Below the pieces are notes generated by a model. It saw nothing but the letters and a program-made list of their open reading frames with translations, was not told where the DNA came from and ran no database searches. The position numbers were made by a program, and so were the translations under genes. Of a DNA stretch of 64,000 nt, positions 7,470-39,424 are shown one piece after another; the first letter of the stretch is position 1; each line of letters begins with the position of its first letter. This stretch comes from Methylobacterium sp. 77 (GTDB taxonomy: Bacteria > Pseudomonadota > Alphaproteobacteria > Rhizobiales > Beijerinckiaceae), in NCBI RefSeq assembly GCF_000372825.1, contig NZ_KB910516.1:1644011-1708010 (forward strand). Reading direction: 5' to 3'.

Positions 7470-8975
7470 TCAGGCGACGACGAGGAAGTCGGTGTAGGTC
7501 AGCGCGAGGTTGGCCTTGAGGTGCGCGAACGCGACCTGGGCGCCTGCGCCGGATCCGTCTGCATCGTAGGAGAGTAGTCCGCTCGCCACATCGTAGATCA
7601 TGTGGTCCGAGCTGTCTCGAGCCCCGGTACCGATGCGGAATTCCGACGCCGACAGAGTGCCGTCGTTGAGGGCGGTGAAGATGTCGTCGTCGAGGACGAT
7701 CGTGTCGAGACGGACCTTGAAGTCGGTGAGCGTGTCGACGTTGGTGCGACCGATCTTGGTATCGAAGTAGAACCGATCGCCACCGCTCCCACCCGACAGG
7801 ACATCCGATCCGGCGCCGCCATAGATCAGGTCGTTGCCCGCTTCGCCTGAAATCGCATCCTGGCCGGCGCCACCCCTCAGGACGTTCGAGACGCCGCTTC
7901 CGACCAGGGTGTCCGCGCCTTTCCCACCGGTGATGTTCTCGATGCTGATCAAGGTATCGCGGCCGATATCGACGCCTTTGGCGAAATATTGCGCGTAGAC
8001 ACCGTTGCTGTAGTCACCGATGCCGGACAGGTTCACCGTCACCGCGGAGACCACGGCGCTGTAATCGACCGTATCCTTGCCGTCCGTCGTCGAACCGAAG
8101 CCGTTGCCGCCGTCCAGCCGATCGTCTCCGGTGCCGCCAATGAGCGTATCGTTGCCGTCGCCGCCGAAGAGCGTGTCGTTGCTCGATCCGCCGTCCATCG
8201 TGTCGTTGCCGTCTCCCCCGAGAAGGATGTCTTTGCCGGCCATGCCGTGCATCACATCCGCCGTCGTCACGCCGCGGATGGTGTCGGCGCCGCTGCCGCC
8301 GGTCTGTGTCAGGGTATGGGTGCGAACGTTCCAGTCCCAGCTCGCCACCTGCTTGCCGTCGCTTCCGTCGGTCCCGTACAACGCTCGCGCCGCTGCAATA
8401 TCCAACGGGCCGAGATCCGGGGCGTAACCGGTATAGCTCATCACCGTATAGCTGGTGTTGTCCAGCTTGGGATCGAGGACGACGCTTCCGTCGAACGAGT
8501 GCTTCAGGCCGATCGCATGCCCGATCTCGTGAATCATGACGTGCTGCATGTCGTCGGTCGAGTATTGCATCACCGATTTATCGATGAACACATCGCTGCC
8601 GATTTTGGATTGATAGACGTAGGTCTCGCCGATGGACATCCCGGGATAGTAGGCATAGCCCGCGGCGCCGGCCGAACGGCTCAGGGAAAAGTCGTAATTC
8701 CCGAACCGGATCTCGCCCTGCCCGGCCGGCACTTCGAGAAAGCGAATTCCACTCGCATCGTCCCATTGCCCCAGTGCCTCGAGGGCCGACCGGCGTTCCG
8801 CTGCCGTGAAGGCGGCGAACGAATTGATGAAGGCGGACGATTCACCGCCCTCCGAGACATAGTCGGACGGCTTGGTATCGAACGAATAGGTGATGAAGAT
8901 CGGCTTCTTGGCGGTCGTTCCGCCCCAGAGATCGCTTCCGGAAATTAACGCCGTATAATCAGAGACAATGGTCAT
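7470..8975 (-). CDS. Serralysin-like M10B metalloprotease with RTX repeats
   Basis: 501 residues. The zinc site HEIGHAIGLKH is at residues 149-159 and a Met-turn VMSY at 178-181, the arrangement of M10B serralysins. From about residue 225 come glycine/aspartate nonapeptides of the RTX type (GGDGNDT, GGTGDDR, GGAGSDV) that bind calcium, followed by a hydrophobic C-terminal end (TYTDFLVVA) acting as the type I secretion signal. There is no Sec signal peptide, as expected. Role: an extracellular protease of unknown target. Start ATG has GAGGG 8-9 nt upstream. No exporter is adjacent; the type I pair at 25335-28456 is a candidate partner. The M10B call is secure, the substrate is not known. Confidence 0.9.
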   Translation of the reverse strand: MTIVSDYTALISGSDLWGGTTAKKPIFITYSFDTKPSDYVSEGGESSAFINSFAAFTAAERRSALEALGQWDDASGIRFLEVPAGQGEIRFGNYDFSLSRSAGAAGYAYYPGMSIGETYVYQSKIGSDVFIDKSVMQYSTDDMQHVMIHEIGHAIGLKHSFDGSVVLDPKLDNTSYTVMSYTGYAPDLGPLDIAAARALYGTDGSDGKQVASWDWNVRTHTLTQTGGSGADTIRGVTTADVMHGMAGKDILLGGDGNDTMDGGSSNDTLFGGDGNDTLIGGTGDDRLDGGNGFGSTTDGKDTVDYSAVVSAVTVNLSGIGDYSNGVYAQYFAKGVDIGRDTLISIENITGGKGADTLVGSGVSNVLRGGAGQDAISGEAGNDLIYGGAGSDVLSGGSGGDRFYFDTKIGRTNVDTLTDFKVRLDTIVLDDDIFTALNDGTLSASEFRIGTGARDSSDHMIYDVASGLLSYDADGSGAGAQVAFAHLKANLALTYTDFLVVA

Positions 8976-9334
8976 GGCAGCCCTCGCAGCTGCGAAACCC
9001 TAGATAGCACGGTCCGTGGCGGCAAGATGGAGCCGCTGTGTCAGTAATCGTCCAGCGACGGGCTTGCCTTCGGACGTCGATCTCCAGACACGGCGTCCAA
9101 ACATTTGACCAAGCTGCTTTTTTGGTTTCCGCCCGCCTTGCTTTGGAACCATGGCGCGGGTCACAGCGTCGAGAAATTCTCAACGCGTCGCCCACAACCT
9201 TCCTCGATCCCGGTTAGCGGATCGTAACGTCGTCGTCCCGCACCGGACGGCGTGCCATTGCATCCCAGGTGCAAAGGCTGCATCGATCCGCACCCGAGGC
9301 CGCAACGACGGTCGATCGGTACGGAGACCCTGCC
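8976..9334. other. Intergenic region between protease and small-gene pair
   Basis: Upstream region for two divergently oriented transcription units. A short inverted repeat GAGAA-A-TTCTC occurs at 9171-9181. I see no gene, tRNA or convincing promoter boxes. Confidence 0.5.
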
Positions 9335-13509: not shown

Positions 13510-14643
13510 TCACGCCTCTTTCCGGAGAATGTAATAGCCGCTGTCGCGACGTCCCGGCCCCAGATTGACGTAGAGGTCTTTCAGCAGACGGATGCCGAGG
13601 AGCCGCAAGGATCGTCCGAAAGATCGATAGGATCCGACGTCGACATCGATATGGTGCCCCCCGAAGCGCCCCACGGTGACGGTCATTCCGGCCCGTGACG
13701 CGAGCACCTCGACCGACTTTCTCGAGAACGAGTTCACGTGCTCGAGCGGAAGGATCGTATTGTAGTCGTTGAAGCGCCGTCGCCGCTGAAAATCGAACTC
13801 GAACGGTGACCAGTCGATGAAGCCGTTCTTTCTCAAAAGGTCGCGGATCCGGCCCTGGCGGGGCACCGCGATCTTGAACAGGCCGCCCTCCGCCACACAA
13901 TCCGCCAGCATGTCGAAGACCGCGACCGGGTCGGTCAGGTGCTCGAAGACCTGCTCGGTATGGACGATGTCGAAGCGGCGGTTCTTCAGTTCCGCATCGG
14001 TTAGAATTGTCACTCCGATGGAGCGCGCAAAGGCGATCTTCTCCGGCGAGATTTCGGTGGCATAGACGCTCATGCCCATTCCCACCGCCACCCGCGCCCA
14101 GCGCCCGTAGCCGAAGCCGAAATCGAGCAGGCTGACATCCTTCGGCTCCTTGCCGAGAATGGCAAGCAGGTCGATCAGGCGGCGTGAGACGTCCTGGAAA
14201 TTGTCGGCCGTGAGCCGATCGAACTCGAATCGCTTGAGTTTATCGGGGTCAATGAATTGGTCGTAGATGACACTCAGCATTCGGTCCGAGGGCGTATTCT
14301 TCTGGTAGATCAGTTCGCAGTTCGGACATTCCATGATCGTGTAGTCGAATCCTTTCAGGATGTCGCAATTGACCGTTCCCTGATTCCGGTAATGGCTCTC
14401 GACATGCCGGCGCACCTGCGGCGCCTCGTATCCTGCGGTGAACAGTGTCGCTGAATGGATCGAGCCGCAAACGGGACAGGCGATCCGCGCCTCGAAGAGC
14501 GCACCGTCTCGCGCGTCGGCACTGCTGCCGATGGTCGTAACATTCTCTGTATGCCTCGACTGCCGCGGCGCCTTGGCGACGGCATCGTCCGGGTCCTGGC
14601 ATGTCAGCGACGCGATCTTCTGCGGGGGGGAGGCCTTGTCCAT
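13510..14643 (-). CDS. Class I SAM-dependent methyltransferase with N-terminal zinc ribbon
   Basis: 377 residues. Two Cys pairs, CPVCGS near residue 56 and CPNCEL near residue 107, form a zinc-ribbon-like region, followed by a Rossmann methyltransferase domain with motif I LLDFGFGYGRWA and post-motif FDIVHTEQVFEHL. This architecture is seen in methyltransferases of sugar and natural-product pathways acting on C, N or O of nucleotide-sugar or carrier-bound intermediates. The ATG at 14643 has AAGGAG 5 nt upstream; an upstream ATG at 14730 lacks one. It is the last gene of the minus-strand cluster that starts with asnB. Substrate unknown. Confidence 0.85.
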   Translation of the reverse strand: MDKASPPQKIASLTCQDPDDAVAKAPRQSRHTENVTTIGSSADARDGALFEARIACPVCGSIHSATLFTAGYEAPQVRRHVESHYRNQGTVNCDILKGFDYTIMECPNCELIYQKNTPSDRMLSVIYDQFIDPDKLKRFEFDRLTADNFQDVSRRLIDLLAILGKEPKDVSLLDFGFGYGRWARVAVGMGMSVYATEISPEKIAFARSIGVTILTDAELKNRRFDIVHTEQVFEHLTDPVAVFDMLADCVAEGGLFKIAVPRQGRIRDLLRKNGFIDWSPFEFDFQRRRRFNDYNTILPLEHVNSFSRKSVEVLASRAGMTVTVGRFGGHHIDVDVGSYRSFGRSLRLLGIRLLKDLYVNLGPGRRDSGYYILRKEA

Positions 14644-14916
14644 GACAGCTCCTTGAGACTGCTGACGAAGTGAGTTCCGCAGACTTGTTAAGAATGATCG
14701 CCGCTGGTCGCCTACTTGCCAATTGTCCATTGTGAGTATCGTGCCGGCATAAACTGTCGGCCAAACGTATAAGAGGATAGAACGATTCTATGATGACGTA
14801 GATTTGATGCAACGTCGCTTCTCATCGCTCTGGAAGCGCGGCGTCGGTCGGGAACCGCAGGAAGGCTTTCCCGAAACGGCTCCCACGGGGTTTCCTTGCA
14901 GATCAGGCAAGCTGAT

Positions 14917-15597
14917 TCAGGACATCTCCGCTCTACGCCTAGCGCGCACGACGCGGGGGATGGCGTGCCCATCGCAGAGGAAATCCGGCGCCTCGTAGCC
15001 TCGGGCACGCCTGAACAGAGTCGCGATCTGTAGGTGCTGGCCCTCGCCGAACTCCATGGCGAGCCACCCATCCGGCTTCAGGAAGCTCAGTCCTTCCTGG
15101 ATGACGCGCTGATGGACGGACAGACCGTAGGGGCCGCCATCGAAGGCCTCGCGCGGTTCTGCCGCGAGCAGATAGGCCTTCTCCGCAGCGAGCCGTCCCG
15201 TCGAGATATAGGGCGGGTTGCAGACGATGAGGTCGGCTTCGCCCTTTGCGAGGTCGGGAGCGATCGCAGCGAAGAGGTCTCCCTGCCGCACCGTGATCCG
15301 GTTCGTCAGACCGAGGCGCACCACATTGGCCGAGGCGGCGGCGACCGCCCCGCTCGTGAGGTCGCTCGCCAGGATTTTCGTCTCCGGGAAGGCCGTCGCC
15401 AAGGCGCAGGCGAGATTGCCGGCCCCGCAGCACATGTCGACCACGGTCCCACGGTTGCCGCGTTGCCGCAGAATCTCACAGGCGGCACGACCGAGGAGCT
15501 CGGTTTCTTCGCGGGGGACGAGGACGTCCTGCCCAATCTCCATCTCGACTCCCAGGAAACTCTTCGTCCTGGCGACGGCGTGTGACGGCTCCATCAT
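14917..15597 (-). CDS. HemK/PrmC-like N5-methyltransferase family protein
   Basis: 226 residues. SAM-binding motif VVDMCCGAGNLACALA, and the diagnostic NPPY motif in IVCNPPYIST, which in PrmC positions a glutamine side-chain amide. There is no separate N-terminal PrmC helical domain, and a cluster location away from prfA argues against the housekeeping release-factor methylase; it may methylate an amide or amine of the cluster product. It follows the GNAT-like gene by about 90 nt. The reaction is inferred only from the motif. Confidence 0.8.
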   Translation of the reverse strand: MMEPSHAVARTKSFLGVEMEIGQDVLVPREETELLGRAACEILRQRGNRGTVVDMCCGAGNLACALATAFPETKILASDLTSGAVAAASANVVRLGLTNRITVRQGDLFAAIAPDLAKGEADLIVCNPPYISTGRLAAEKAYLLAAEPREAFDGGPYGLSVHQRVIQEGLSFLKPDGWLAMEFGEGQHLQIATLFRRARGYEAPDFLCDGHAIPRVVRARRRAEMS

Positions 15598-15687
15598 CTC
15601 CTCCCCTGTTGAAGGTTCACGGGTGCGTTTCCGAGGATGGGGCCATGCTCTCGCCTGGGCCGTTGCCCCGTTCCGTCGAAGCGATCG

Positions 15688-16890
15688 TCAGCATTTCGAA
15701 GGCGTGTACGGACCGGTCCAGCATGGGATCGTGCGCTGGAGCAGCAATTCCGGAATCGCCGCGCCGCCGGCCTTCCGGCCGCCGACGTCGAAGGCCACGA
15801 TACTGGTCTCTGTCGCCGTTGCCCGGCAGTCCCGCCGGTAGCGGACTGGGCTCGTCCACTCGCTTTCGGAAAATCCGGCCGCGAGGTCGGTGTATCCGAG
15901 CAGGAAGCGTCCTCGCGGCTGCGCGTCATGTAGGGACTTGAGCAGATGCAGGATGAGAGCCCATCCCGCCCCCGCGCAATCCTCACGCGAACCGCCGTCG
16001 AGGTAGTAAACGTTCCGGCCGAACGCGACGGTGCCGGCCGTCGCCAGCGGTGCCCGATCGCCGTAGGCGATCGTCGTCGAGACGTGCCTGTGCAGCATCA
16101 GACACCTCAGGACGTAGCCGGCGGCTGCCCAACTCTGGCTGAAGGCGATCGACTTCCGGTTGTACATGGTCCCGCGCAGGCCCAGCGCGACTGGCAAGGA
16201 GAGGACCGCTTCGGCCCCCGATCTGGCGGGCATCTCCGTCACGCTCGACTTCCGGGCGTTGCGCAGGACGTTCTTGCTGATGGTCTTGAGGAAATCATCC
16301 CATTGTGGCCAGCGCGCGAAGTCGACCGCTTCGACCGCGAGCGGACGGGAGGCGACGAGCTCGACGCCTGTCATGGCTTCCAGCATGCGTTCCCGCGGCT
16401 CTTCTGTGCTCCAGAACGACCCGTAGACGTAGCGGCCCGGCCCGAGCGTATCGAGGACGGCCTTCATCGCCTTGGGCCAGAGCGGCGCGAAGGCGGGCAG
16501 GAGATGAAGCCCGTCCGAGAACGCCTTGATCCGAGGACCGATACCGACCGCACATTGCCCGATCTTGCACTCTCCGGCACCGCGCCGGACGGCGAAGACC
16601 TCGAAGCGCCTCAGGTGGAAGAGCGAATGCAGCTTCATCTGCCACATGCGCATGCCGCCTCCGGCACACCAGAACGAGGCGTCGCATGCTTGAGCGAACC
16701 GTTCCCAATCCTCGGTCGAGCCCATGAACGGAACGACCTTGATGGTGCCGTCGACGGAATGACCGGCGAGGTCCACGGAGGCACCGACGTCCTTCCGGGG
16801 CAGATTTAGCTGATGCAGGCGGAAGGAAGCTCCGAGTATCGGCGTGTGCAGGATCGGCTCGATCATCTGAGACCATTCGGCATCGATCAT
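15688..16890 (-). CDS. GNAT/FemAB-like acyltransferase
   Basis: 400 residues. The second half (about 225-355) carries a GNAT-type fold signature: basic LRNARKS helix, TTIAYGDRAPLATAGTVAFG strand pair, YYLDGGSRED loop and helix ALILHLLKSL. The layout resembles BioF2-like or FemAB-related transferases that move an acyl or aminoacyl group to an amine. I chose ATG 16890 (GAGAGGGGC upstream) over the longer frame to 16953. In exosortase-associated polysaccharide clusters a FemAB-like gene accompanies AsnB, ligase and carrier-protein genes, the same company as here. Specific donor and acceptor unknown. Confidence 0.65.
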   Translation of the reverse strand: MIDAEWSQMIEPILHTPILGASFRLHQLNLPRKDVGASVDLAGHSVDGTIKVVPFMGSTEDWERFAQACDASFWCAGGGMRMWQMKLHSLFHLRRFEVFAVRRGAGECKIGQCAVGIGPRIKAFSDGLHLLPAFAPLWPKAMKAVLDTLGPGRYVYGSFWSTEEPRERMLEAMTGVELVASRPLAVEAVDFARWPQWDDFLKTISKNVLRNARKSSVTEMPARSGAEAVLSLPVALGLRGTMYNRKSIAFSQSWAAAGYVLRCLMLHRHVSTTIAYGDRAPLATAGTVAFGRNVYYLDGGSREDCAGAGWALILHLLKSLHDAQPRGRFLLGYTDLAAGFSESEWTSPVRYRRDCRATATETSIVAFDVGGRKAGGAAIPELLLQRTIPCWTGPYTPSKC

Positions 16891-17302
16891 GATGGCCTGC
16901 CCCTCTCGCCACACTTGGACTTGCACGCGAGATCGCGTGGCGGGTTCACCCATTCCTCGGCATGGGAAAGAGGAGCGCGTCTTTGGTCCGGCCGTCCATG
17001 TCTTGGGCTGAAGGCCGGTGGAGCGAAATCATCCCGATCGGTGGGTTCGCTCGTTCCTGAGGGGCTCTCGTCGGTCACGTCGGCCCGTGATCCAAGACCG
17101 TCTTTCCACCGCGCCGCCCGGACGAAACCGCGACGCGGGCTTGGCTGAAGGTGCATCACGATCCGAGCCGGGGATCGGCGGCACCGGTCAGGTGATGTGC
17201 TCCCATCTCCAGATCCTGCTCGGACCATGTCTTCGGGGCAGCGGTAGGGCGGGCGCCAGCCGGCGAGGGACGAAGGAGGGCATGGCGCTCCGCGAAGGAA
17301 GC
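16891..17302. other. Gap inside the biosynthetic cluster
   Basis: 412 nt between the thioesterase and GNAT-like genes. It has open frames on both strands but they are Arg/Pro-rich and lack start signals, so none is called. An internal promoter is possible. Nothing else identified. Confidence 0.45.
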
Positions 17303-18421
17303 CTACAAGGGGGATGGTAAGGAGGCGTGCCGCTGGTCGCCACGCTCCGGGGTGGCCGAGGAGAGGACGATCGTGCCTGTGCCGCTCGATGCTGTTCGAC
17401 ATGGGATCTCGCTCGAAATCTCGATGCGTTGATGGTGGGATGTCCGAGGGAAGTGGAATGCGTCCGAGAGCGCGTGCGCCAGTTCCGGCGCATGATCCGC
17501 GATGCAGGTGTAGTGGTTGCCAGGGACCGGGACGTAGGTGACGTCGGGGCACAGTTTGGCCCAGGATCGGCCGTCATAGGCGGCGTCGTAATTCTCTCCG
17601 CGCCGCCCTGCTGCATCGACCCCGGTCCCGAGCACGACGATCCGCACCGGGAGGGAGGGCGGAATGTACGAGTACAGCGCGCGCTCGTAGGCGCTGGTGA
17701 GGGACAGGTGCTTCTCGCTGATCGCCAACTCTTGCGCGCGCGCGGCCGCGGGGACGGCGGCATCCGCGACCAGCCGCATCTTGCGTGCGGTCCTGAGTCT
17801 TCTCTTCCGGTCGAGGACCACCCGCATCTCGTGCAGCGAGAAGCCCATGACCCGTCGCAGGGCGGTCAAGCGCGTCATGGCTGTGCCGACCCGATACTGG
17901 CGCATGGGAGAGGAGCCGGGGCTGGATGGCCCGAGCGCCCTGTCGGTGATCGCGAAGAGGCGCCGAAAGGCACGTCCGGCATTCAGCGATGGGGGGGCGA
18001 CGAGGGCCACCAACTCGACATCCCGCCCGCTCTGAATCAGCAGGCGCGCCGCCTCATAGGCAACCATGGCGCCGTTGCAGAATCCGCCGAGGCGGTAAGG
18101 TCCGTCCGGTTGCGCGACGAGGAGGTGTTGCACACGGTCCGTTGCCATCTCGTGGACGGTGGCGGGGACGGGCTCGAGATGCGGGGCGATGCCGATGACC
18201 GGGAAGCCGAGCTCTGCCGCCAATCTCGCCATGTAGAGACCGCCATTATCCCAATCACCATGGAAGAAATGCAGCGGCGCGGCGTCGGGAGCGAACGAAC
18301 TGCCCGGCGCACCGATGTAGCGTGTCACCACCGTACCTTCCGCGGCACAGGCATAGCGCCAGAACCGCAGCTTCTCGAGGCGTCGATGTCTCGCCAGTTC
18401 CTTCTGAACGTCATCCGTCAT
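17303..18421 (-). CDS. Alpha/beta-hydrolase thioesterase with Cys in place of the catalytic Ser
   Basis: 372 residues, thioesterase domain of the polyketide/peptide type. The nucleophile elbow reads GGFCNG (normally GxSxG), so the nucleophile would be Cys. The His appears in PVPGNHYTC near the C-terminal third. Type II and terminal thioesterases release or edit acyl groups on carrier proteins; a Cys nucleophile is known in some that make strained or amide products. A 45-residue low-complexity tail follows the fold. It is placed after the NadE-like gene by about 95 nt and shares its direction. Function in the cluster is inferred: off-loading from the carrier protein at 21101. Confidence 0.8.
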   Translation of the reverse strand: MTDDVQKELARHRRLEKLRFWRYACAAEGTVVTRYIGAPGSSFAPDAAPLHFFHGDWDNGGLYMARLAAELGFPVIGIAPHLEPVPATVHEMATDRVQHLLVAQPDGPYRLGGFCNGAMVAYEAARLLIQSGRDVELVALVAPPSLNAGRAFRRLFAITDRALGPSSPGSSPMRQYRVGTAMTRLTALRRVMGFSLHEMRVVLDRKRRLRTARKMRLVADAAVPAAARAQELAISEKHLSLTSAYERALYSYIPPSLPVRIVVLGTGVDAAGRRGENYDAAYDGRSWAKLCPDVTYVPVPGNHYTCIADHAPELAHALSDAFHFPRTSHHQRIEISSEIPCRTASSGTGTIVLSSATPERGDQRHASLPSPL

Positions 18422-18517
18422 GCCGTTCGTCCCATTCGCCTTGAGCGCGATGCCGATCCGCGCGTCGCGAGGATCGTCTTGGTGGCGGGAGCCTGCCGTC
18501 TCGTGATCCCGCTTTGG

Positions 18518-19534
18518 TCAGGCGCCGCACAGCAGCGGCGGCAAGTGAAGGGCGGCGGTCGCCGTCCGCTTCGCCTCGATGTCGCGCCAGATGCGCATGA
18601 CCTGATCCTCTCGAAGATCTGTGCAGGCGGCCACCGCATGAGGTGGTGCGTGGAGCGAGAGCCCCGCGAGGCAAAGATCCATCGCTTGCCAGGGCAACGC
18701 GAAGTAGAATTCCTCCTGGGTCTGCGGCAGCGACCAGGTGTCCGTCGTGGGCGGCCGGCTTCGGATGCCGATGGGCACGCCGACATGCTCCGCGAGCTGA
18801 TAGACCTGCGCCTTGTAGAGATGCGCGATCGGTTTGACGTCGGCCGCCCCGTCGCCGTTCTTCACGAAGAAACCCTGGTCGTATTCGAGCTTGTTGGGCG
18901 TGCCGAGCACTGCATAGTTCAATCGATCGGCATGGTAATATTCCATCTGCTTGCGAGTGCGCTGCTTCATGTTGGTCGCGGCCACGATCGCTTGGTAGGT
19001 GGCCGCCCGCAGTCGGATCTTGCGCATCTGTCCGGTGGGCGATTGCACCACGAGCGACGAGATGCCGTATTCGGCGCCCGCCAGGGGATTGGCGATCACG
19101 ACCTTGGATCTCCAGTCCTCGGCATAGGCCGGTTCGACCGTTCGAATGGCGTCATCGCGCCGGGCGTAGCAGCCCATCGCCTGAAGCGTGTCGCCGATAT
19201 CCTCGATCGTCGACCGGATCCCGAAAGCATCCGCCACCTCCCGGCCGAGGGTTAGGCTCTCCGGATCGGAATCGTGCTCCGGCATCAGCAGGCCGAGGAC
19301 ATGCTCGGCGCCGACGGCCTGGACCGCGAGGGCGGCGCAGAGACTGGAATCGACTCCGCCGGAGAGGCCAAGGACGATGCCGCGCTTGCGCAACGTCCCC
19401 TGGACCTGTCGACGAAGGCTTTCGACGATGCGGTCGGTCTCCGCGCCCGGATCAAGCCTCAGGCTCGCGGCGGAGAAGTCGGGCTCGACAGTTAAGGCTG
19501 TGAGACCGGAGAGGGAGGCGAGACCCGTTTTCAT
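18518..19534 (-). CDS. NadE-like ammonia-dependent amidating enzyme
   Basis: 338 residues with the ATP-pyrophosphatase P-loop GLSGGVDSSLCAAL and the NAD synthetase-like NYAVLGTPNKLEYDQGFF and KNGDGAADVKPIAHLYK motifs. There is no glutaminase domain, so ammonia must come free or from a partner. Housekeeping NadE converts deamido-NAD to NAD. Here it lies in a cluster with an AsnB and an adenylating ligase, and its start overlaps the ligase stop by 4 nt, so a specialised amidation is plausible. Whether the chromosome has another nadE cannot be seen from this window. Either a true NAD synthetase or a repurposed one. Confidence 0.8.
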   Translation of the reverse strand: MKTGLASLSGLTALTVEPDFSAASLRLDPGAETDRIVESLRRQVQGTLRKRGIVLGLSGGVDSSLCAALAVQAVGAEHVLGLLMPEHDSDPESLTLGREVADAFGIRSTIEDIGDTLQAMGCYARRDDAIRTVEPAYAEDWRSKVVIANPLAGAEYGISSLVVQSPTGQMRKIRLRAATYQAIVAATNMKQRTRKQMEYYHADRLNYAVLGTPNKLEYDQGFFVKNGDGAADVKPIAHLYKAQVYQLAEHVGVPIGIRSRPPTTDTWSLPQTQEEFYFALPWQAMDLCLAGLSLHAPPHAVAACTDLREDQVMRIWRDIEAKRTATAALHLPPLLCGA

Positions 19535-21090
19535 GCTCCCATCTCCATGCTGTCGTCGGCTTTGATGCCCTCGGCGGCGAGCCTGCGACTCACCTTGCCG
19601 GTATCGGTCATGGGAAGTTCGGACCTGAACTCCACAGATTGCGGCACCATGAAATCCTCGAGATGCCGCTGGCAGTGGCGCAGCACGTCGAGAGTGGTGA
19701 TCGCCGGATCGGAGGCGACGACCAGCGCGCGGATCGATTGGCCAAGGACGGGATCGGGCAGCCCGATCACGACCACCTCGTCGATACCGGACATCGCATG
19801 AATCACAGCCTCGACTTCCTTCGGAGCAACCTTTTCGCCCCGCGTCTTGATGATGTCGTCCTTGCGCCCGATGAAGTATAGGAAGCCATCGGCGTCCGCG
19901 TAAAACAGGTCTCCCGTGTAGAGAACCTTCTCCCAGCTGTTCCATCCGGGTCTCAGGGCAACGCGCGTGGCTTCCTCGTTCTGCCAATAGCCCTGCATGA
20001 CGTGAGGCCCGCGGATGACGAGTTCGCCGACGACGTGCGGAGGGACCGGCCGGCCGGCTGCATCGACGACGACGGCTTCGGTGCCGGGGATGGCGATCCC
20101 GACCGACCCGGCATGGGTTTCGATCCGCTCCGGCGGGAGCCATGTGCAGCGCTTGCACTCTGTCAGCCCATACATCGAGTAGAGCGCGGCATGCGGGAAG
20201 AGTTGGCGCAGCCGTTCGATATGGGCGACCGGCAGGGCGGCCGCAGTGTTGGTGAGGTAGCGCAGGTCCGGCAGCGAGTCCGGCTGGAAGGAGCGCAGTT
20301 TCAGGATCATCGCCACCATCGTCGGAACCAGGGGCAGACCCGTGACGCGCTCGGTGCGCATCAGCCCGAAGATGGCATGCGGATAGGCAAAGGACGTCGC
20401 GAGGACGATTCGGGCGCCGACCTTCACTGCCATGAGGACCTGATACAGTCCGTAATCGAAAGCGATGGGCAGCACGTTGAGGATCACGTCCTCTTCGACG
20501 TTGCGCAGGTAAGTAGTGATCGAACTTGCCGCCGCATCGACGTTGCGATGGGTCATCATCACGCCTTTCGGCCGGCCGGTAGAGCCCGACGTGTAGACGA
20601 GCATCGCGAGATCCGAGTCGATCCCGCCATGCGGCAACTGCAGTGGGGGCGCGGCCTCGAGGCAGCCCGCGAAGGAGACGGCATTCGGAACGGTTTCCGT
20701 CGCGCCGTTCGCGACGACGAGGATGACGCTCGGGGCCAATGCGAGGACGGACCTCGCGGCGACGGCGAGCGGAGCCTCAATGAGCACTGCGCGGGCCTCA
20801 CAATTACGCAAGATATAGTCGAGCTTCTCTGGTTTCACTGACGGATTGACCATGCTGAAGACGGCGCCGGTCTTCAGCACGGCGAAGATGGCGACGACCG
20901 CCTCCCAGATGTTCCCCATCTGGATGACCACGCGGTCGCCCCGCTCGATGCCGCGGGCCTGGAGTACTCCCGCGAGGCGATCCGACAGCAGGTCGAGCTC
21001 GGAATAGGTGAGACGGCGTTCCGACGTGACTAGAGCAACCTTCGATCCGAGGCGGCGGGCGCTCTCGCGGAGATAATTCTCGATGCGCAT
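19531..21090 (-). CDS. Class I adenylate-forming ligase (acyl/aminoacyl-AMP synthetase)
   Basis: 519 residues. ANL signatures: P-loop YTSGSTGRPKGVMMTH (A3), SMYGLTECKR (A5), TGDLFYADADGFLYFIGRKDD (A7-A8, hinge) and the C-terminal catalytic Lys in MTDTGKVSRR (A10). It activates a carboxylic acid with ATP and most likely loads it onto the carrier protein whose gene ends 10 nt upstream. Length and lack of extra domains make it a stand-alone adenylation enzyme rather than an NRPS module. Related ligases are found in exosortase-associated and rhizobial polysaccharide or lipid clusters. Substrate cannot be predicted reliably by eye. Confidence 0.88.
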   Translation of the reverse strand: MRIENYLRESARRLGSKVALVTSERRLTYSELDLLSDRLAGVLQARGIERGDRVVIQMGNIWEAVVAIFAVLKTGAVFSMVNPSVKPEKLDYILRNCEARAVLIEAPLAVAARSVLALAPSVILVVANGATETVPNAVSFAGCLEAAPPLQLPHGGIDSDLAMLVYTSGSTGRPKGVMMTHRNVDAAASSITTYLRNVEEDVILNVLPIAFDYGLYQVLMAVKVGARIVLATSFAYPHAIFGLMRTERVTGLPLVPTMVAMILKLRSFQPDSLPDLRYLTNTAAALPVAHIERLRQLFPHAALYSMYGLTECKRCTWLPPERIETHAGSVGIAIPGTEAVVVDAAGRPVPPHVVGELVIRGPHVMQGYWQNEEATRVALRPGWNSWEKVLYTGDLFYADADGFLYFIGRKDDIIKTRGEKVAPKEVEAVIHAMSGIDEVVVIGLPDPVLGQSIRALVVASDPAITTLDVLRHCQRHLEDFMVPQSVEFRSELPMTDTGKVSRRLAAEGIKADDSMEMGA

Positions 21091-21100
21091 CCCGGCCTCC

Positions 21101-21382
21101 TCAGGCTGCCTGGGAGGACGGGGACACCACGGCGAAACGCTTTCGTGCGACGAAGGCGTCTACCTTGGCGATGGAATCGAAATTGGCCGGCAGAATTTCG
21201 TCATCGGCAACGACGATCCCGAACGTATCTTCTACGAAAGCTACGAGTTCGAGGATGCCGGTGGAGTCGATCACGCCATGCTCGATGAACGATCCGTCGT
21301 AGGTCAAAGGAGAGGTCACATCGCCGAAGAGAAACGTTTCGACGACGAATGAATGAACCTGGTCTGAAATGCTGGATGACAT
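21101..21382 (-). CDS. Acyl carrier protein-like phosphopantetheine protein
   Basis: 93 residues, one four-helix carrier domain. The attachment serine is in GVIDSTGILELV, the DSxxxxELV pattern of ACP/PCPs. It would carry the acid activated by the ligase. Two start codons are possible; ATG at 21382 has GGGGAG 7 nt upstream, while ATG at 21388 is too close to it. It lies between asnB and the ligase on the same strand with short gaps. No phosphopantetheinyl transferase is seen in the window, so it must use one encoded elsewhere. Confidence 0.85.
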   Translation of the reverse strand: MSSSISDQVHSFVVETFLFGDVTSPLTYDGSFIEHGVIDSTGILELVAFVEDTFGIVVADDEILPANFDSIAKVDAFVARKRFAVVSPSSQAA

Positions 21383-21457
21383 CTTCATTCTCCCCGAATA
21401 AAACTTGATATGATCTGACTTCGCCGACTTTCGACGTGTCCCTGGTCCGATTCTTTC

Positions 21458-23419
21458 TCAGATCGCGGCGGCGAGCGCGGTGGCTTCGCCCTCATGCGTC
21501 CGCGCCTCGGCGAAGCTGCGATGCCAGAGTTGCGTCGACAGGATCCCCACGAAGGCCGCGTTGTCCCGGAACCCACGGCTGCCGAGGGTGCGGCATTTCT
21601 CGGCGAGCCGCGTCACGGAGGCCGGATTGAAAAGACCGGTCCTGCGAACCGCCTCGGACGAAAGCATCGCGGCGACGTAGTCGGGCGCGTCCGGTCCCGC
21701 GAAGGAGCTGCTGTCGGGCGCTCGGTAGGGCTGCTTTGGTCGATCGATGATCGCAGCCGGGACGATGTCCCGCGCGGCCCGCTTCAGGATATGCTTCTCC
21801 GCGAGGCCCCGTAACTTCAGGCCCGGTGGAAGTGCGGCGGCGAACTCGATCAGGCGATGATCGAGGAACGGGAAGCGGCCTTCGACGCCATGAGCCATCG
21901 CCATTCGGTCGCCCTGGCTCGAGAGGATGTAGCCGGGCAAGAGGTATCGGGTTTCCAGGTATTGCGCCTGATGCAGCGGGTGCCAGCGCCGCATCTCGGC
22001 AGGCAGCGCGGCCGCGAGTTCCTCGGTTGCATCGTAGTCGCCCAAGGTAGCCTTGAGATCACCCGAGAAGAATATCTTCGTGGCCGCCGTGCCCCGGAAG
22101 CGCGGGCGATGCGAATAGAGCGGGTCGTCGAGGGCATCCTCGCCGGCCCCGAAGAACGCACCCAGCGATTCCGGCGTCTGCTGCTGAAGACCGGACATAT
22201 AGGGATAGAGCCGGCGCAGCAGGTGAGGCCGCATCCGTGAGGTCGGCTGGCGCGCACAGAAGCGCCGAACCCTGGCCTCCTTGAAAATGTCGTAGCCGGC
22301 AAAGACTTCGTCGGCCCCTTCTCCCGTGAGGACGACCTTCATGCCGTTCTCGCTGACGAGCCTCGAGAGCAGGAAGAGCGGCGCCGGGGCCGTCCGCAGG
22401 ATTGGGCGCTCAGTGTGGCGGATGACGTCGGGGAAGGACTGCGCGATCTCGCGGGCACCGCAGGCGACGGCAGCATGGCGCGTGCCGAGGTGGTCCGCCA
22501 TGATCCGCTGGTAGGCGCTCTCGTCGTGCTCCGCCGAGTCGAACGTCACCGAGAAAGTGCGCAGGTTTTCCGGAGCCTGGCGCGCCGCGAGCGCAGCGAC
22601 GAGGGAAGAATCGAGCCCGCCCGACAGATAGGCCCCGACCGGCACGTCTGAGCGCATCCGGATGGCGGTGGCGTGTTCGAGGAGGGCGAGGGCCTCTTCG
22701 CACAGGTCTTCGTCGGAGCGGGTCGTTTGCGGCGCGTCCCGGTCCGGGAAGGTGAGCTGCCAGTACGGCCGTATGGTCTCCTGCCCGTCCTCAATCAGCA
22801 TCATGTGGGCAGGCGGCAATTCGGCGATGTCCTTGAACATCGTCCGTGGCGGGATCGGCGCCCACAACGTGAAGGTTTGATCGAGGGCGATCGGGTCGAT
22901 CTCCGTGGCGATGCCGGGGAATCTCAGCAGCGCCTTGATCTCCGAGGCGAAGACAATGATTTCGCCCCGTCGCGCATGGAATAGCGGACGGACGCCGGCG
23001 CGGTCACGGGCCAGCATCATCCGCCGGCGCCTGCCGTCCCAGATCGCGAAGGCGAAGTCGCCGTTCAGCGCTTCGACGCAGTCGGGGCCGTATTCCTCGT
23101 AGAGGTGCAGCAAGACCTCTGTATCCGATTCCGTCCGGAAGCGGCGGCCCCGCTGGCGCAATCGGTCGCGCAACTCGACGAAGTTGAAGATCTCGCCGTT
23201 GAAGCTGACGCAGATGGCTCCGTCCTCACTCGCCATCGGCTGGATTCCGCCGTCGATGTCGACGATGGCCAAGCGGGTATGGCCGAGCCCGGCCCCTTCG
23301 AACGTCGTAGCTCCCCGGTCATCAGGCCCCCTGTGAGCCAGCGACAGCACCATGTTCTGCAAGACGGAGCTGCTCTCGTCCGAAGAAACGCTTCCGACGT
23401 ATCCGACCAATCCGCACAC
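21458..23419 (-). CDS. AsnB-type glutamine-dependent amidotransferase
   Basis: 653 residues. With the GTG at 23419 as start (GGAGG upstream) the protein begins M-C-G-L-V-G-Y-V, placing the N-terminal nucleophile Cys2 of class II glutaminases; starting further upstream would bury it. Glutaminase motifs LAHRGPDD and SFNGEIFNF are present; the synthetase half has SGGLDSSLVAAL and TGEGADEVFAGYD. It adenylates a carboxylate and amidates it with glutamine-derived ammonia. Relatives in biosynthetic clusters amidate sugars or peptides rather than Asp. It is the first gene of the cluster and is likely expressed from the promoter in 23420-23758. Confidence 0.92.
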   Translation of the reverse strand: MCGLVGYVGSVSSDESSSVLQNMVLSLAHRGPDDRGATTFEGAGLGHTRLAIVDIDGGIQPMASEDGAICVSFNGEIFNFVELRDRLRQRGRRFRTESDTEVLLHLYEEYGPDCVEALNGDFAFAIWDGRRRRMMLARDRAGVRPLFHARRGEIIVFASEIKALLRFPGIATEIDPIALDQTFTLWAPIPPRTMFKDIAELPPAHMMLIEDGQETIRPYWQLTFPDRDAPQTTRSDEDLCEEALALLEHATAIRMRSDVPVGAYLSGGLDSSLVAALAARQAPENLRTFSVTFDSAEHDESAYQRIMADHLGTRHAAVACGAREIAQSFPDVIRHTERPILRTAPAPLFLLSRLVSENGMKVVLTGEGADEVFAGYDIFKEARVRRFCARQPTSRMRPHLLRRLYPYMSGLQQQTPESLGAFFGAGEDALDDPLYSHRPRFRGTAATKIFFSGDLKATLGDYDATEELAAALPAEMRRWHPLHQAQYLETRYLLPGYILSSQGDRMAMAHGVEGRFPFLDHRLIEFAAALPPGLKLRGLAEKHILKRAARDIVPAAIIDRPKQPYRAPDSSSFAGPDAPDYVAAMLSSEAVRRTGLFNPASVTRLAEKCRTLGSRGFRDNAAFVGILSTQLWHRSFAEARTHEGEATALAAAI

Positions 23420-25334: not shown

Positions 25335-27152
25335 ATGAGCGTCTTGGAAATCGGAAAGATCAAGGCATTTCTGCCGAACACTCTCATGGCCGGGTTTGGC
25401 GTCGGCGATTTCGTGCGGAAAGATGTCCGAGCCCGAGCCCTCATCGAGGTCCTTCGCCCCTGCCGTTCGGCGCTTGCCGCGGCGGCCATCCTGAGCGGGA
25501 TGCTGAACCTCCTGGCGCTTGCCGGTTCGTTCTACATGATGGAAGTGTACGACCGAGTCCTCCCGAGCCACAGCGTGCCGACGCTGCTCGGTCTGACGGC
25601 ACTGATCGTCTTCCTCTACGGTTTTCACGGAATCTTCGATCTGCTTCGCGGCCGGCTCCTTCTGAAGGTCGGAACCCATGTCGACGAAGCGCTGAGCCGC
25701 CGCGTCTTCCGGGCCTCGGTGGCGGTGCCGGCGGGCGGGCGCCCGAATGGCGATGCGTCGCAGCTCATCAGGGATCTCGATCAGGTCCGCAGCTTCCTGT
25801 CGGGCAGCGGTCCCGCCGTGTTCTTCGACCTGCCGTGGTTGCCGATCTACCTCGCCCTCTGCTTTCTGTTCCACGTCTGGATCGGGGCGGTCGTGCTCGG
25901 CGGAGCCATCCTGATGGTAGGGCTGACCCTGGCGACGGAACTCGCGGTGCGTGAGCCGACACGCGAGGCCGTGGCAGCCGGTGCAACACGCCAGCGCGTC
26001 GCCGAATCGGCTCGCCGAAACGCCGACAGTATTCGGGCAATGGGAATGCAGCCGGAGCTTTCCCTGATCTGGGATCGCGTCAACCTGCCCTATCGCACGA
26101 GCCAGGAGAGCGTATCCGCCGTGACGGCGGGGCTTGGATCGGCCGCTCGCGTCCTTCGCTTGCTGCTTCAATCCCTCGTCCTCGGCGTCGGCGCTTTTCT
26201 CGTGATCCGGCAGGACGCCACAGGCGGTGTCATCATCGCGAGTTCGATCCTGACGGCCCGTGCTCTGGCGCCGGTGGACCAGGCGATCGGGCATTGGAAG
26301 GGGCTCACCCTCGCCCGCCAGAGCTGGCAGCGCCTGTCCGCCCATCTCTCCCTCACCCGCGACGAGCCGGTGCGGATGCCGCTTCCCGCTCCGCGCCAGA
26401 CCCTGATCGTCGAGGGCGCCTGCGCCGCGCCGCCCAACGTCCAGCGGCTGACCGCGGCCGATGTCAGCTTCACCCTGAACGGCGGACAAGGGCTTGGGAT
26501 CATCGGTCCGAGCGCCTCCGGGAAGTCCAGCCTCGCGCGTCTCCTTGTCGGCATCTGGGCCCCCGTCCGGGGCAAGGTGCGCCTCGATGGCTCGGCCCTT
26601 GAGGATTGGGATGCCGACGCGCTCGGGCGACATGTCGGATACATGGCCCAGGAGATCGAGCTTTTCCCAGGAACGGTCGCCGCCAATATCGCCCGATTCC
26701 GCCCGGACGCCACTGCGGAGGCCGTGATTGCGGCGGCACAGGCCGCCAACGTTCACGCCATGATCCAGGCGCTTCCCGCGGGTTATCAAACCCTCGTAGG
26801 CGACCATGGTGCAGATCTTTCGGCAGGTCAGCGCCAGCGCATCGCCCTGGCACGGGCCCTCTTCGGGGAGCCTTTCCTCGTCGTCCTCGACGAGCCGAAC
26901 TCGAACCTCGACAGCGAGGGCGAGCAGGCCCTGACGGATGCGATGGTCGCGATCCGCCGTCGCGGTGGGATCGTGGTCGTGGTGGCTCACCGACCGAGCG
27001 CGCTCGCCGCCATCGATTTGGTCCTGGTGATGACCGAGGGCCGCATGCACGCACTGGCACCGAAGGAGGAGATCTTCGCCCATACGCTGAAGGCCGTCCC
27101 TCCGGCGCGCGGCGACCGTCCCTTGAGAGCCGTGGGGGGAGCGCAATCATGA
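25335..27152 (+). CDS. Type I secretion permease/ATPase (PrsD/PrtD-like)
   Basis: 605 residues. An N-terminal membrane domain of about 340 residues is followed by an ABC domain with Walker A GPSASGKSS, signature LSAGQRQRIALARAL, Walker B FLVVLDEPNSNLD and H-loop VVAHRPS. There is no N-terminal peptidase C39 domain, so it exports RTX-type substrates with uncleaved C-terminal signals. In rhizobia PrsD/PrsE export the polysaccharide glycanases ExoK and ExsH, and here the next secreted protein is an RTX-tagged GH16. Its stop overlaps the adaptor's start (ATGA). Its outer membrane partner, TolC-like, is not in the window. Confidence 0.92.
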   Translation: MSVLEIGKIKAFLPNTLMAGFGVGDFVRKDVRARALIEVLRPCRSALAAAAILSGMLNLLALAGSFYMMEVYDRVLPSHSVPTLLGLTALIVFLYGFHGIFDLLRGRLLLKVGTHVDEALSRRVFRASVAVPAGGRPNGDASQLIRDLDQVRSFLSGSGPAVFFDLPWLPIYLALCFLFHVWIGAVVLGGAILMVGLTLATELAVREPTREAVAAGATRQRVAESARRNADSIRAMGMQPELSLIWDRVNLPYRTSQESVSAVTAGLGSAARVLRLLLQSLVLGVGAFLVIRQDATGGVIIASSILTARALAPVDQAIGHWKGLTLARQSWQRLSAHLSLTRDEPVRMPLPAPRQTLIVEGACAAPPNVQRLTAADVSFTLNGGQGLGIIGPSASGKSSLARLLVGIWAPVRGKVRLDGSALEDWDADALGRHVGYMAQEIELFPGTVAANIARFRPDATAEAVIAAAQAANVHAMIQALPAGYQTLVGDHGADLSAGQRQRIALARALFGEPFLVVLDEPNSNLDSEGEQALTDAMVAIRRRGGIVVVVAHRPSALAAIDLVLVMTEGRMHALAPKEEIFAHTLKAVPPARGDRPLRAVGGAQS

Positions 27153-28456
27153 TCGAACTCAGCCCCACCACGGCGCGCAGCATCCGCCATCACCTCATCG
27201 CCACGTCGGCCGGCCTCGCTGCGCTGGTGGTCAGTGCCGGGGGATGGGCCGCGAATGTCGAGTTTTCCGGTGCGGTCGTTACATCGGGCCTCCTTGTCGT
27301 CGAATCCCAGGTCAAGAAGATCCAGCATCCGACCGGCGGAGTCGTGGGCGAGCTTCGCGTCCGTAACGGCGATGCCGTAACCGCGGGCAGCATCCTGCTC
27401 CGCCTCGACGACACCCTGCTGCGGGCCAACCTCGCCATCGTGACGAAGGCCCTCGACGAGTCGATGGCGCGGCGCGCACGTCTCCAGGCCGAGCAGGAAG
27501 GATCCACCGAACTGGTGTTTCCGTCCGATTTGCTCGCCCGAAAGGGGGAGACGGATGTCGATCGGCTGATTCGCGGCGAACGGACCCTGTTCGAGATGCG
27601 ACGCTCCGCGCTCGACGCCCAAAAGGCGCAGCTGTCCGAGCGAATCGCCCAATCGGAGGAGCAGATCAAAGGCCTCAACGAACAGATCGAGGCTAAGGGC
27701 AGCGAGATCGCGCTGATCGAGAGCGAGATCGGCGGCGTCCGTGAGCTCTGGCAGAAGAAACTCGTCCCGATTCAGCGTGTGACCGCCCTCGAGCGCGATC
27801 TCGTTCGCATTCGCAGCGAGCGAGGCTCCCGCGTCTCCGACATCGCGCAGGCACGCGGACGCATCAGCGAGACGCGCCTTCAACAGATCCAGCTCGAACA
27901 GGACATGCGGACGAAGGTCGGCCAGGAACTCGCGGACATCTGGAACCGCATCTCCGAATTTGTCGAGCGGAAGGTGTCGGCGGAGGACCAGCTGAAGCGC
28001 GTCGACATCCGCGCGCCCCAGGACGGCATCGTTGACCAACTCGCCCTCCACACCGTGGGCGGCGTCGTCAGCGCCGGGGAAACCGTGATGCGGATCGTTC
28101 CGGCGGAGGACCGCCTCGCCGTCGAGGCCCGGCTCTCGCCGCAGGACCGCGACCAGACCTATCCCGGCCAGCGCGCGATCCTGCGCTTTTCCGCCCTCAA
28201 CCAGCGGACGACGCCAGAGATCGAGGGCGCCGTGTCCCTGATCTCGGCCGACATCACCACGGATCCGAAAACTGGCCAGGGATACTACACCACGCGCGTC
28301 GCGGTGACCGATGACCAGATCGCCCGCCTCGGCGGCGTGAAGACCCAGCCCGGCATGCCCGTCGAGGTCTTCGTCCAGACACACCCGCGAAGCGTGCTTT
28401 CCTACTTCACGAAGCCCTTCGCCGATCAGGTTGCGCGCGCCTTCCGCGAGAAGTGA
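27149..28456 (+). CDS. Type I secretion membrane fusion protein (HlyD/PrsE-like)
   Basis: 435 residues: short cytosolic N-terminus, one membrane helix at about 15-35, a lipoyl/barrel half-motif KKIQHPTGGVVGELRVRNGD, a long coiled coil at about 100-290 with repeated heptads (SERIAQSEEQIKGLNEQIEA), and the second barrel half RVDIRAPQDGIVDQLALHTV. It bridges the inner-membrane ATPase and an outer-membrane TolC. Its start overlaps the ATPase stop by 4 nt with GGGGGAG upstream, so the pair is translationally coupled. Length fits the HlyD/PrtE family. Confidence 0.93.
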   Translation: MIELSPTTARSIRHHLIATSAGLAALVVSAGGWAANVEFSGAVVTSGLLVVESQVKKIQHPTGGVVGELRVRNGDAVTAGSILLRLDDTLLRANLAIVTKALDESMARRARLQAEQEGSTELVFPSDLLARKGETDVDRLIRGERTLFEMRRSALDAQKAQLSERIAQSEEQIKGLNEQIEAKGSEIALIESEIGGVRELWQKKLVPIQRVTALERDLVRIRSERGSRVSDIAQARGRISETRLQQIQLEQDMRTKVGQELADIWNRISEFVERKVSAEDQLKRVDIRAPQDGIVDQLALHTVGGVVSAGETVMRIVPAEDRLAVEARLSPQDRDQTYPGQRAILRFSALNQRTTPEIEGAVSLISADITTDPKTGQGYYTTRVAVTDDQIARLGGVKTQPGMPVEVFVQTHPRSVLSYFTKPFADQVARAFREK

Positions 28457-30528: not shown

Positions 30529-30537
30529 GACTCCGTA

Positions 30538-30554
30538 CCGGATATCGTATCCGG
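30538..30554 (+). terminator. Hairpin 10 nt after the GH16 gene
   Basis: CCGGATA-TCG-TATCCGG, a perfect 7-bp stem with 3-nt loop, 9 nt past the stop codon. Probably the terminator or 3' stabiliser of the glycanase message; no T-run. Confidence 0.5.
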
Positions 30555-30577
30555 GACATTGCAGAGTGTCTTGGTTT

Positions 30578-30657
30578 GCATAGGCCAGAAAGGCGGCGTC
30601 CGCTTTTCAGGCCTATGCTCCCAGGCGATCGACGGCGGCGGATGTCTCCGCCGCCGT
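30578..30657. repeat. Two tandem strong inverted repeats
   Basis: GCATAGGCC (30578-30586) pairs with GGCCTATGC (30610-30618), with an inner GCGG/CCGC stem; then ACGGCGGCGGA (30632-30642) pairs with TCCGCCGCCGT (30647-30657) over a 4-nt loop. Either could be a terminator, the second being followed by TT. Strong structures in tandem are unusual for a simple 3' end. Confidence 0.55.
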
Positions 30658-31169
30658 TCGGCGCATTCGTGTGATGCGAAAACAAGGGCTTAGCGCATGA
30701 GACGGGATGCCATGCCCGATCCGACGCGCTGATCCGGACCTCCGACCGAGATCGCGGCAGATGCCCCCTTCCGAGGCCGCCGAGTCTTCCTACCCGATGC
30801 TCCGCCGACCTGCGTAGCCTCCTAACCCGGGGCCACTCGCCCATAGCTTCCTCGGGGTTTTCATATTCGCCTCACGGATGCTCTCGCATGCTGCAAAACG
30901 GGCGGTTCGTCGGCATTAATACTTCCGCACATATTGTGATTTGCCGCCGAAATGGTGCTCTCTCTAAGCGTCACTAGACGGGTCAGGGACTAGAGGCAGA
31001 TCAATAAACAAGTCCAGTTCTTCAAGATCTGGGCGCATAACATCCTCGCGCCGACATTTATCGAGCTGAATGCTTGTGTTGTTGCGGCCACCGCGCTGCT
31101 GACGGCGAGCTGTCTTGCCCGGAAATGGAGGCCATCCCTGACCTGTGTCGAATACCAGGAGGATTCGGG

Positions 31170-31925: not shown

Positions 31926-31934
31926 GGGGTGGCC

Positions 31935-32783: not shown

Positions 32784-32833
32784 GACACCGACCCGACGTG
32801 AGCGCGCCGACGCGGTACAATGGGGACATACTC

Positions 32834-34192: not shown

Positions 34193-34255
34193 GCTTCGCC
34201 GTCACTGCGAATTTTGCCCGAAGCCCATCCTACCGCCGCACAGAGGACGCCGCCG

Positions 34256-36768: not shown

Positions 36769-36776
36769 GGCTTCCC

Positions 36777-39418: not shown

Positions 39419-39424
39419 ACCGCC

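Follow-up and report, generated by a model that had tools for sequence, protein, structure and literature searches.

What could be made by a group of genes that joins the loading of a carrier protein to two different amidating enzymes, with no polyketide synthase (PKS) or nonribosomal peptide synthetase (NRPS) among them? The question is raised by eight genes in a 64,000-nucleotide window of the one-contig, 4.66-Mb genome of Methylobacterium sp. 77 (the window being G000:C1:1644011-1708010). The original prediction, that these are co-directional minus-strand genes for carrier-protein loading and amidation without a PKS or NRPS module, fits the gene content: all eight open reading frames (ORFs) are present and intact, and the Pfam and NCBIfam searches detect neither a PKS nor an NRPS among them. 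It did not include the VinN-type aspartate pocket of the ligase, the FemX fold or the broad occurrence of the core in rhizobia. The eight genes are a conserved carrier module of ordinary-looking enzymes, the core of which is widespread in rhizobia and their relatives. We tentatively favor, with somewhat less than even confidence, the reading that the module builds an aspartate-derived amide, perhaps N-methylated, and attaches it to the exopolysaccharide (EPS) encoded next to it. The genes, from AsnB through to the CxxC methyltransferase, are as follows.

21458-23419, minus strand: AsnB-type glutamine-dependent amidotransferase of the asparagine synthase B family, with a GTG start, a CG N-terminus (Cys2) and an SGGLDSS ATP-PP loop (TIGR01536, 518.6 bits, cut-off 267.1)
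21101-21388, minus strand: standalone acyl/aminoacyl carrier protein (ACP), motif IDSTG (DSTG in relatives), with NCBIfam carrier-protein matches below the cut-off
19531-21090, minus strand: VinN-like adenylating ligase (PF00501; top solved structure 3wvn, E 3.7e-81), pocket D-Y-T-K-R
18518-19534, minus strand: NadE-like ammonia-type amidating enzyme of the PRK00876 subfamily (NF002048, 481.7 bits, cut-off 313), with an insertion of about 50 residues
17303-18421, minus strand: thioesterase (PF00975) with a cysteine in the nucleophile elbow (GFCNG)
15688-16890, minus strand: candidate aminoacyl transferase of predicted FemX fold (AlphaFold2 model, pLDDT 83; top Foldseek matches FemX)
14917-15597, minus strand: HemK/PrmC-like N-methyltransferase (NPPY), scoring above the cut-off of TIGR00536 and below that of TIGR03534
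13510-14730, minus strand: class I S-adenosylmethionine-dependent methyltransferase (PF13489) with N-terminal CxxC pairs, Zn-ribbon-like by eye

The first four genes form the core. When the NadE-like protein was run against contigs of bacterial and archaeal genomes, 352 stretches were found to encode a relative; the 80 best of them serve as the loci here. AsnB, ACP, ligase and NadE are complete in 78 of these; one of the two others has no ligase (L023) and the second, which ends at a contig edge, has neither AsnB nor ACP (L086). The non-core genes are much less frequent, with the HemK-like gene in 33 of the 80 loci, the thioesterase in 7, and the FemX-like gene and the last methyltransferase in one each, the latter in M. 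oryzihabitans, which holds all eight genes inside 12 kb with the last one about 2 kb apart. In a separate sample of 398 Pseudomonadota genomes, searched at an E limit of 1e-40, the NadE subfamily was found in 15, including the window's own genome and M. oryzihabitans. Among the 14 sampled loci other than that of the window, the ligase and ACP lie near NadE in all 14, AsnB in 13 and the HemK-like gene in 6; the locus without AsnB (L127, genome G375) has the order ACP-ligase-NadE and no AsnB match inside the 20 kb examined. At least three core gene orders occur in the sampled loci, NadE-AsnB-ligase-ACP, AsnB-ACP-ligase-NadE and AsnB-ligase-ACP-NadE, and this variation argues for a functional set. 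Linkage in relatives, on which the original prediction was to be judged, holds for the core four; for the remaining genes it is much rarer. NadE-like genes were also matched in 12 Azospirillum plasmid records and on a plasmid titled Roseateles sp. XES5 (NZ_CP084753.1, 231353-232276; 64.5% identity), and the alphaproteobacterial core is present on a contig titled Bacillus subtilis (L087, JAHREI010000008.1), probably a mislabelled or contaminated assembly. A limited literature search for a NadE/AsnB/ACP cluster returned nothing on topic by title and beginning of abstract, and the print record may hold more; a similarly limited search on OlsH found nothing combining all the topics sought.

A clue to the substrate comes from the ligase. 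Among solved structures it is closest to 3wvn, and it is 34% identical to VinN over 482 aligned positions; 3WV4, 3WV5 and 3WVN are listed as VinN structures in the available part of PMC11253843. According to the accessible portions of four papers (PMC7756342, PMC11284099, PMC11253843, PMC12186527), VinN activates the beta-carboxyl of 3-methylaspartate for loading onto VinL, with Asp230 serving the amino group and Ser299 and Arg331 the alpha-carboxyl. An offset of 16 between the 3wvn chain and the published numbering was assumed because D, S and R then fall at the three published positions. With this numbering, positions 230/231/299/330/331 read DYTKR in the window ligase and DFSKR in VinN; Lys330 and Arg331 are kept, and the loop that carries them has the same length. 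The 78 core ligases comprise 52 with DYTKR, 4 with NYTKR and 22 without Asp or Asn at position 230, and Arg331 is present in all 78 (three ligase-like ORFs off the core, L060, L025 and L038, were left out; in the set of 81 that includes them, Arg331 is found in 78). The partner, a standalone ACP, accompanies the ligase in 78 of the 80 loci. This pocket predicts aspartate on the ACP. Since Arg331 is common to all core ligases, AsnB and NadE are likely to act on a free carboxyl of the carrier-bound acid. In one locus (L199, S. meliloti ml56 pSymB), the ligase match falls in two overlapping pieces at 7470-9004 with no ligase coding sequence listed, so the gene may be broken there.

The NadE-like protein passes two curated NAD synthase models (besides NF002048, TIGR00552 with 145.4 bits against a cut-off of 63.65), its catalytic loops SGGxDS and GFFVKxGDGxAD are invariant in 33 sequences, and its AlphaFold2 model (pLDDT 87) has the NadE fold (2e18, E 1.3e-17). 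Compared with 2e18, it has about 50 additional residues between its two conserved halves, where the model places strands. In the thioesterase, the nucleophile position is a cysteine in 8 of 8 aligned sequences; more speculatively, such an enzyme could close a four-membered ring from a beta-amino thioester. The HemK-like protein has NPPY in 29 of 29 aligned sequences and DMCCG in 26 of 29, and its match to the PrmC model TIGR03534 begins at profile position 44 and reaches 169.9 bits against a cut-off of 199.1; a gene above this cut-off is located elsewhere in the genome (C1:4452469). The HemK-like gene follows the ligase pocket, occurring in 33 of the 56 Asp/Asn230 loci and none of the 22 others, these loci being kin.

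Curated models thus confirm the original family calls for AsnB, NadE, the AMP ligase, the thioesterase and HemK; the sixth gene, called "GNAT", has no Pfam or NCBIfam match and is instead predicted to adopt the FemX (aminoacyl-transferase) fold. Its best Foldseek match is FemX of Weissella (7z6a, E 1.8e-12, probability 1.00, TM-scores 0.57/0.67), and the nearest folds also include aminoacyl-phosphatidylglycerol synthases and streptothricin-type aminoacyl transferases. One distant relative matches PF13480, and relatives turn up in 5 of the 99 genomes sampled from the genus, in three cases with 30-32% identity. The ORF as called encodes 421 amino acids (15688-16953), and the likelier start at 16890 gives 400, in agreement with the protein-database entry. 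Rhizobial loci carry instead a family of about 370 amino acids, denoted F0 (84 ORFs in 63 of the 80 loci), with no Pfam or NCBIfam match in the three members tested. Orthology of F0 and the FemX-like protein was considered and rejected (profile comparison probability 0.2%), and a sequence search at E 0.1 detects no solved relative of either.

As for gene layout, the original prediction had several genes overlapping by 4 nucleotides; only the ligase/NadE pair does. The other gaps, from AsnB onward, are 69, 10, 96, 412, 90 and 186 nucleotides, with 10 separating the ACP from the downstream ligase, 412 preceding the FemX-like gene and 186 preceding the last methyltransferase. With gaps of these sizes, more than one transcript is possible and a single one is not evident. 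The ACP itself has no Pfam match, and all its NCBIfam carrier-protein matches are under the cut-off; assignments to the ornithine-lipid ACP model (50.9 bits, cut-off 130) and to the cispentacin carrier-protein model, likewise under its cut-off, were therefore rejected.

The second line of evidence is the genomic neighborhood, in which an EPS module is divergent from the eight-gene cluster.

25335-27152, plus strand: PrtD-type type I secretion ABC transporter (TIGR01842, 695 bits)
27149-28456 (start approximate), plus strand: HlyD-like type I secretion adaptor, named by eye from the translation
28876-30528, plus strand: endo-beta-glycanase of glycoside hydrolase family 16 (GH16), EglC-like, with an RTX-like C-terminus and a 61% identical counterpart in M. 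oryzihabitans
31929-39418, plus strand: EPS genes for a family 2 glycosyltransferase (GT2), a 509-amino-acid protein, a GT2-like protein, a flippase, an export protein and a Wzy-type polymerase, syntenic in M. oryzihabitans at 67-74% identity
39425-40351, plus strand: second GH16 endo-beta-glycanase

In M. oryzihabitans, the cluster is likewise flanked, in divergent layout, by genes for nine EPS-side proteins of the 28876-40351 module, their order unchanged; the best pieces of eight are 61-74% identical and the ninth (window 30990-31724) is 49% identical. The two genomes of the genus, out of 99 sampled, in which the NadE-like gene is found (E 0.001) are also the two with the EPS polymerase (E 1e-20). 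EPS linkage was scored with 14 queries, 5 of them taken from the window and 9 from the loci. Two or more EPS places were found in 34 of the 80 loci: 33 of the 56 with Asp/Asn230, none of the 22 with other pockets, and one of the two without a core ligase ORF. At least one EPS place was found in 8 of the 14 separately sampled loci, compared with none in 20 control stretches of 20 kb, chosen arbitrarily from the genome of the window and from 13 of the 14 sampled ones. Of the two products originally proposed, an amidated small molecule or an EPS decoration, this linkage and co-presence favor the latter.

Several side observations concern this region. The two GH16 enzymes, EglC/ExoK-like and under the equivalog cut-offs, bracket the EPS genes. 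An RTX-repeat M10-type metallopeptidase (7470-8975, minus strand) may be a type I secretion substrate of the PrtD/HlyD-like genes. Two minus-strand genes in a low-GC stretch (877-1809 and 1815-3281) resemble a cyclic-oligonucleotide-based antiphage signaling (CBASS) pair, a SMODS/AGS_C oligonucleotide cyclase and an effector with four transmembrane segments.

From the genes, their linkage, the pocket residues, the folds and the co-occurrence with EPS genes, we infer a substrate, an order of amidations and an acceptor as follows. The VinN-like ligase would adenylate an aspartate-type amino acid at the beta-carboxyl, as its pocket residues suggest, and load it onto the standalone ACP. The free alpha-carboxyl would be amidated by AsnB, the NadE-like enzyme or both; the second of these may act on another carboxyl or convert the amide to an amidine. 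The amide might then be N-methylated by the PrmC-like enzyme, which belongs to a family that methylates amide nitrogen, and the FemX-fold transferase would pass the ACP-bound aminoacyl group to the repeat unit of the EPS, a step that F0 perhaps performs in many rhizobial loci. The Cys-thioesterase may clear wrong loads or take part in release. Because the Asp/Asn230 pocket goes together with the HemK-like and EPS genes, the Asp-type locus can be read as Asp-ACP formation, amidation, N-methylation and transfer to EPS. A sharper version appears rather doubtful: that a FemX-fold enzyme draws on a carrier protein instead of tRNA for an isoasparaginyl (or N-methyl-isoasparaginyl) group and places it on EPS, fed by a VinN-type ligase and by an NAD-synthase-family member turned amidase of carrier-bound acids, and that the same core serves this purpose across Rhizobiales. 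The reading of the ligase pocket as one for aspartate, if true, would give the PRK00876 subfamily of NadE a new role.

A number of observations weigh against transfer of an aspartate-derived amide to EPS. The VinN residue Ser299 is a threonine in the window ligase, and the model does not account for the presence of two amidating enzymes when only one carboxyl is free. The FemX-like gene is present in one of the 80 loci, and F0 is unrelated to it by profile. Fewer than two EPS places were found in 23 of the 56 Asp/Asn230 loci, at least two in only 5 of the 14 sampled loci, and none of the listed EPS families in the S. medicae locus L056; since the 22 core ligases without Asp230 have no EPS neighbors, the core is not always tied to EPS genes. 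The EPS counts overstate independence because 9 of the 14 queries came from these loci and the loci are kin. Co-presence of the NadE-like gene and the EPS polymerase in the genus, which rests on one other genome, may reflect hitch-hiking on an island, and the genes for type I secretion and AraC that separate the cluster from the EPS module are unmatched in the two stretches of M. oryzihabitans that were searched. Finally, SMb20650, the probable S. meliloti counterpart of the ligase discussed below, is treated as a fatty-acid-activation gene in the available parts of PMC7232532 and PMC10315480.

The competing explanation that survives best, unlikely as we consider it, is a small diffusible amide, i.e., a natural product released by the thioesterase, with the EPS neighborhood being only a shared genomic island. 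VinN, BolO and AfcQ serve small-molecule pathways, to judge from the accessible literature; a thioesterase is present; and the 22 other-pocket loci and 23 Asp/Asn230 loci with fewer than two EPS places are compatible with such a product. However, PKS and NRPS are missing from the eight genes, the thioesterase is found in only 7 of the 80 loci, and EPS linkage recurs both in the Asp/Asn230 loci and in 8 of the 14 separately sampled ones.

An acceptor in the envelope other than EPS, such as lipopolysaccharide (LPS), peptidoglycan, a lipid or a protein, is improbable. FemX acts on a peptidoglycan precursor, aminoacyl-phosphatidylglycerol synthases and streptothricin-type transferases are also among the nearest folds, and core loci without EPS genes exist; on the other side, the genes beside the window cluster and the recurrently linked families are those of EPS assembly, LPS and peptidoglycan genes not having been searched for.

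Still less credible is a fatty acyl-ACP synthetase, as in the rhizobial annotation, with the cluster making an N-acyl or amide lipid. The S. meliloti ligase/ACP pair SMb20650/SMb20651 (SMb20650 on pSymB) yielded acylated ACP in E. coli in earlier work cited by PMC7232532, and the ACP of the window weakly matches the ornithine-lipid model. The available text of PMC7232532 also states, however, that FadD is not replaced by SMb20650; Asp230, Lys330 and Arg331 make up a pocket for amino dicarboxylates, and the ornithine-lipid score is far below its cut-off. The S. meliloti pair very probably represents the core described here; its acylated ACP also speaks for the favored reading, and aspartate loading could account for the pair. 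At present, the core is labeled AsnB, acyl-CoA/AMP ligase, NAD synthase or FadD homolog, a labeling that steers experiments toward fatty acids and NAD.

That the NadE-like protein and AsnB are simply an additional NAD synthase and an additional asparagine synthetase riding along is hardly tenable: the curated models and catalytic loops of NadE, and an NF002048 match in the control genome of Methanosarcina acetivorans, would fit, but the gene is linked to ligase and ACP in all 14 sampled loci, its product carries the extra insertion, and another NAD_synthase-family match (a 718-amino-acid frame, C1:1617049) lies elsewhere in the genome.

Among known systems, five resemble the module in part. 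The VinN/VinL, BolO/BolC and AfcQ systems combine adenylation of aspartate at the beta-carboxyl with a standalone ACP, and the window shares with them Asp230, Lys330, Arg331, the loop length and the adjacent ACP. In contrast, the window ligase has Thr for Ser299, and the eight genes contain no pyridoxal phosphate (PLP)-dependent decarboxylase (VinO/BolN type), with AsnB and the NadE-like enzyme in its place, and no PKS/NRPS. The FemX/FemABX proteins share the predicted fold with the window protein at 14-15% identity in the top matches, and the donor in the window would be aminoacyl-ACP. With the release-factor glutamine N5-methyltransferase PrmC/HemK, the HemK-like protein shares NPPY and the HemK-family score; it differs in the shorter N-terminus, a score under the PrmC cut-off and the DMCCG motif. 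The core is also found near 1.45 Mb on pSymB of S. meliloti 1021, and the S. medicae ACP, used as a query, hits 150 places in 147 plasmid records, or roughly one in each; in the two S. meliloti stretches that were read, no match was seen to the window's thioesterase, FemX-like, HemK-like or last methyltransferase genes.

The XrtA/PEP-CTERM exosortase cassette comprises the TIGR03098 ligase, the TIGR03099 decarboxylase, the TIGR03108 amidotransferase and a FemAB protein, and the window has a ligase, an AsnB-type amidotransferase, a FemAB-like transferase and an EPS neighborhood. The resemblance noted in the original prediction holds in that TIGR03098 is the best NCBIfam match of the ligase; the scores of the ligase (445.2 bits, cut-off 592.35) and of AsnB against TIGR03108 (441.6 bits, cut-off 816.9) are under the cut-offs. 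The predicted absence of an exosortase extends to the whole genome (no match to PF09721 at E 0.001), and with these scores it rules out membership in the cassette. In 200 genomes, eight TIGR03098 matches exceed the cut-off; one (L162) was left out because the wrong ORF had been taken, and the other seven all have Asp230, Phe330 and Arg331, so that they share the first and last of these with the window ligase and differ from it at position 330. A second VinN-like ligase in the window's own genome (G000:C1:580546-583363, L184), with the pocket DYSFR, adjoins a TIGR03099-like PLP decarboxylase (407 bits, cut-off 478), although this genome gives no exosortase match. The pocket would tie the exosortase-associated ligases to VinN-like carrier chemistry, and the module of the window is read, from its sequences, as akin in its working to VinN/VinL and, in part, to the exosortase cassette.

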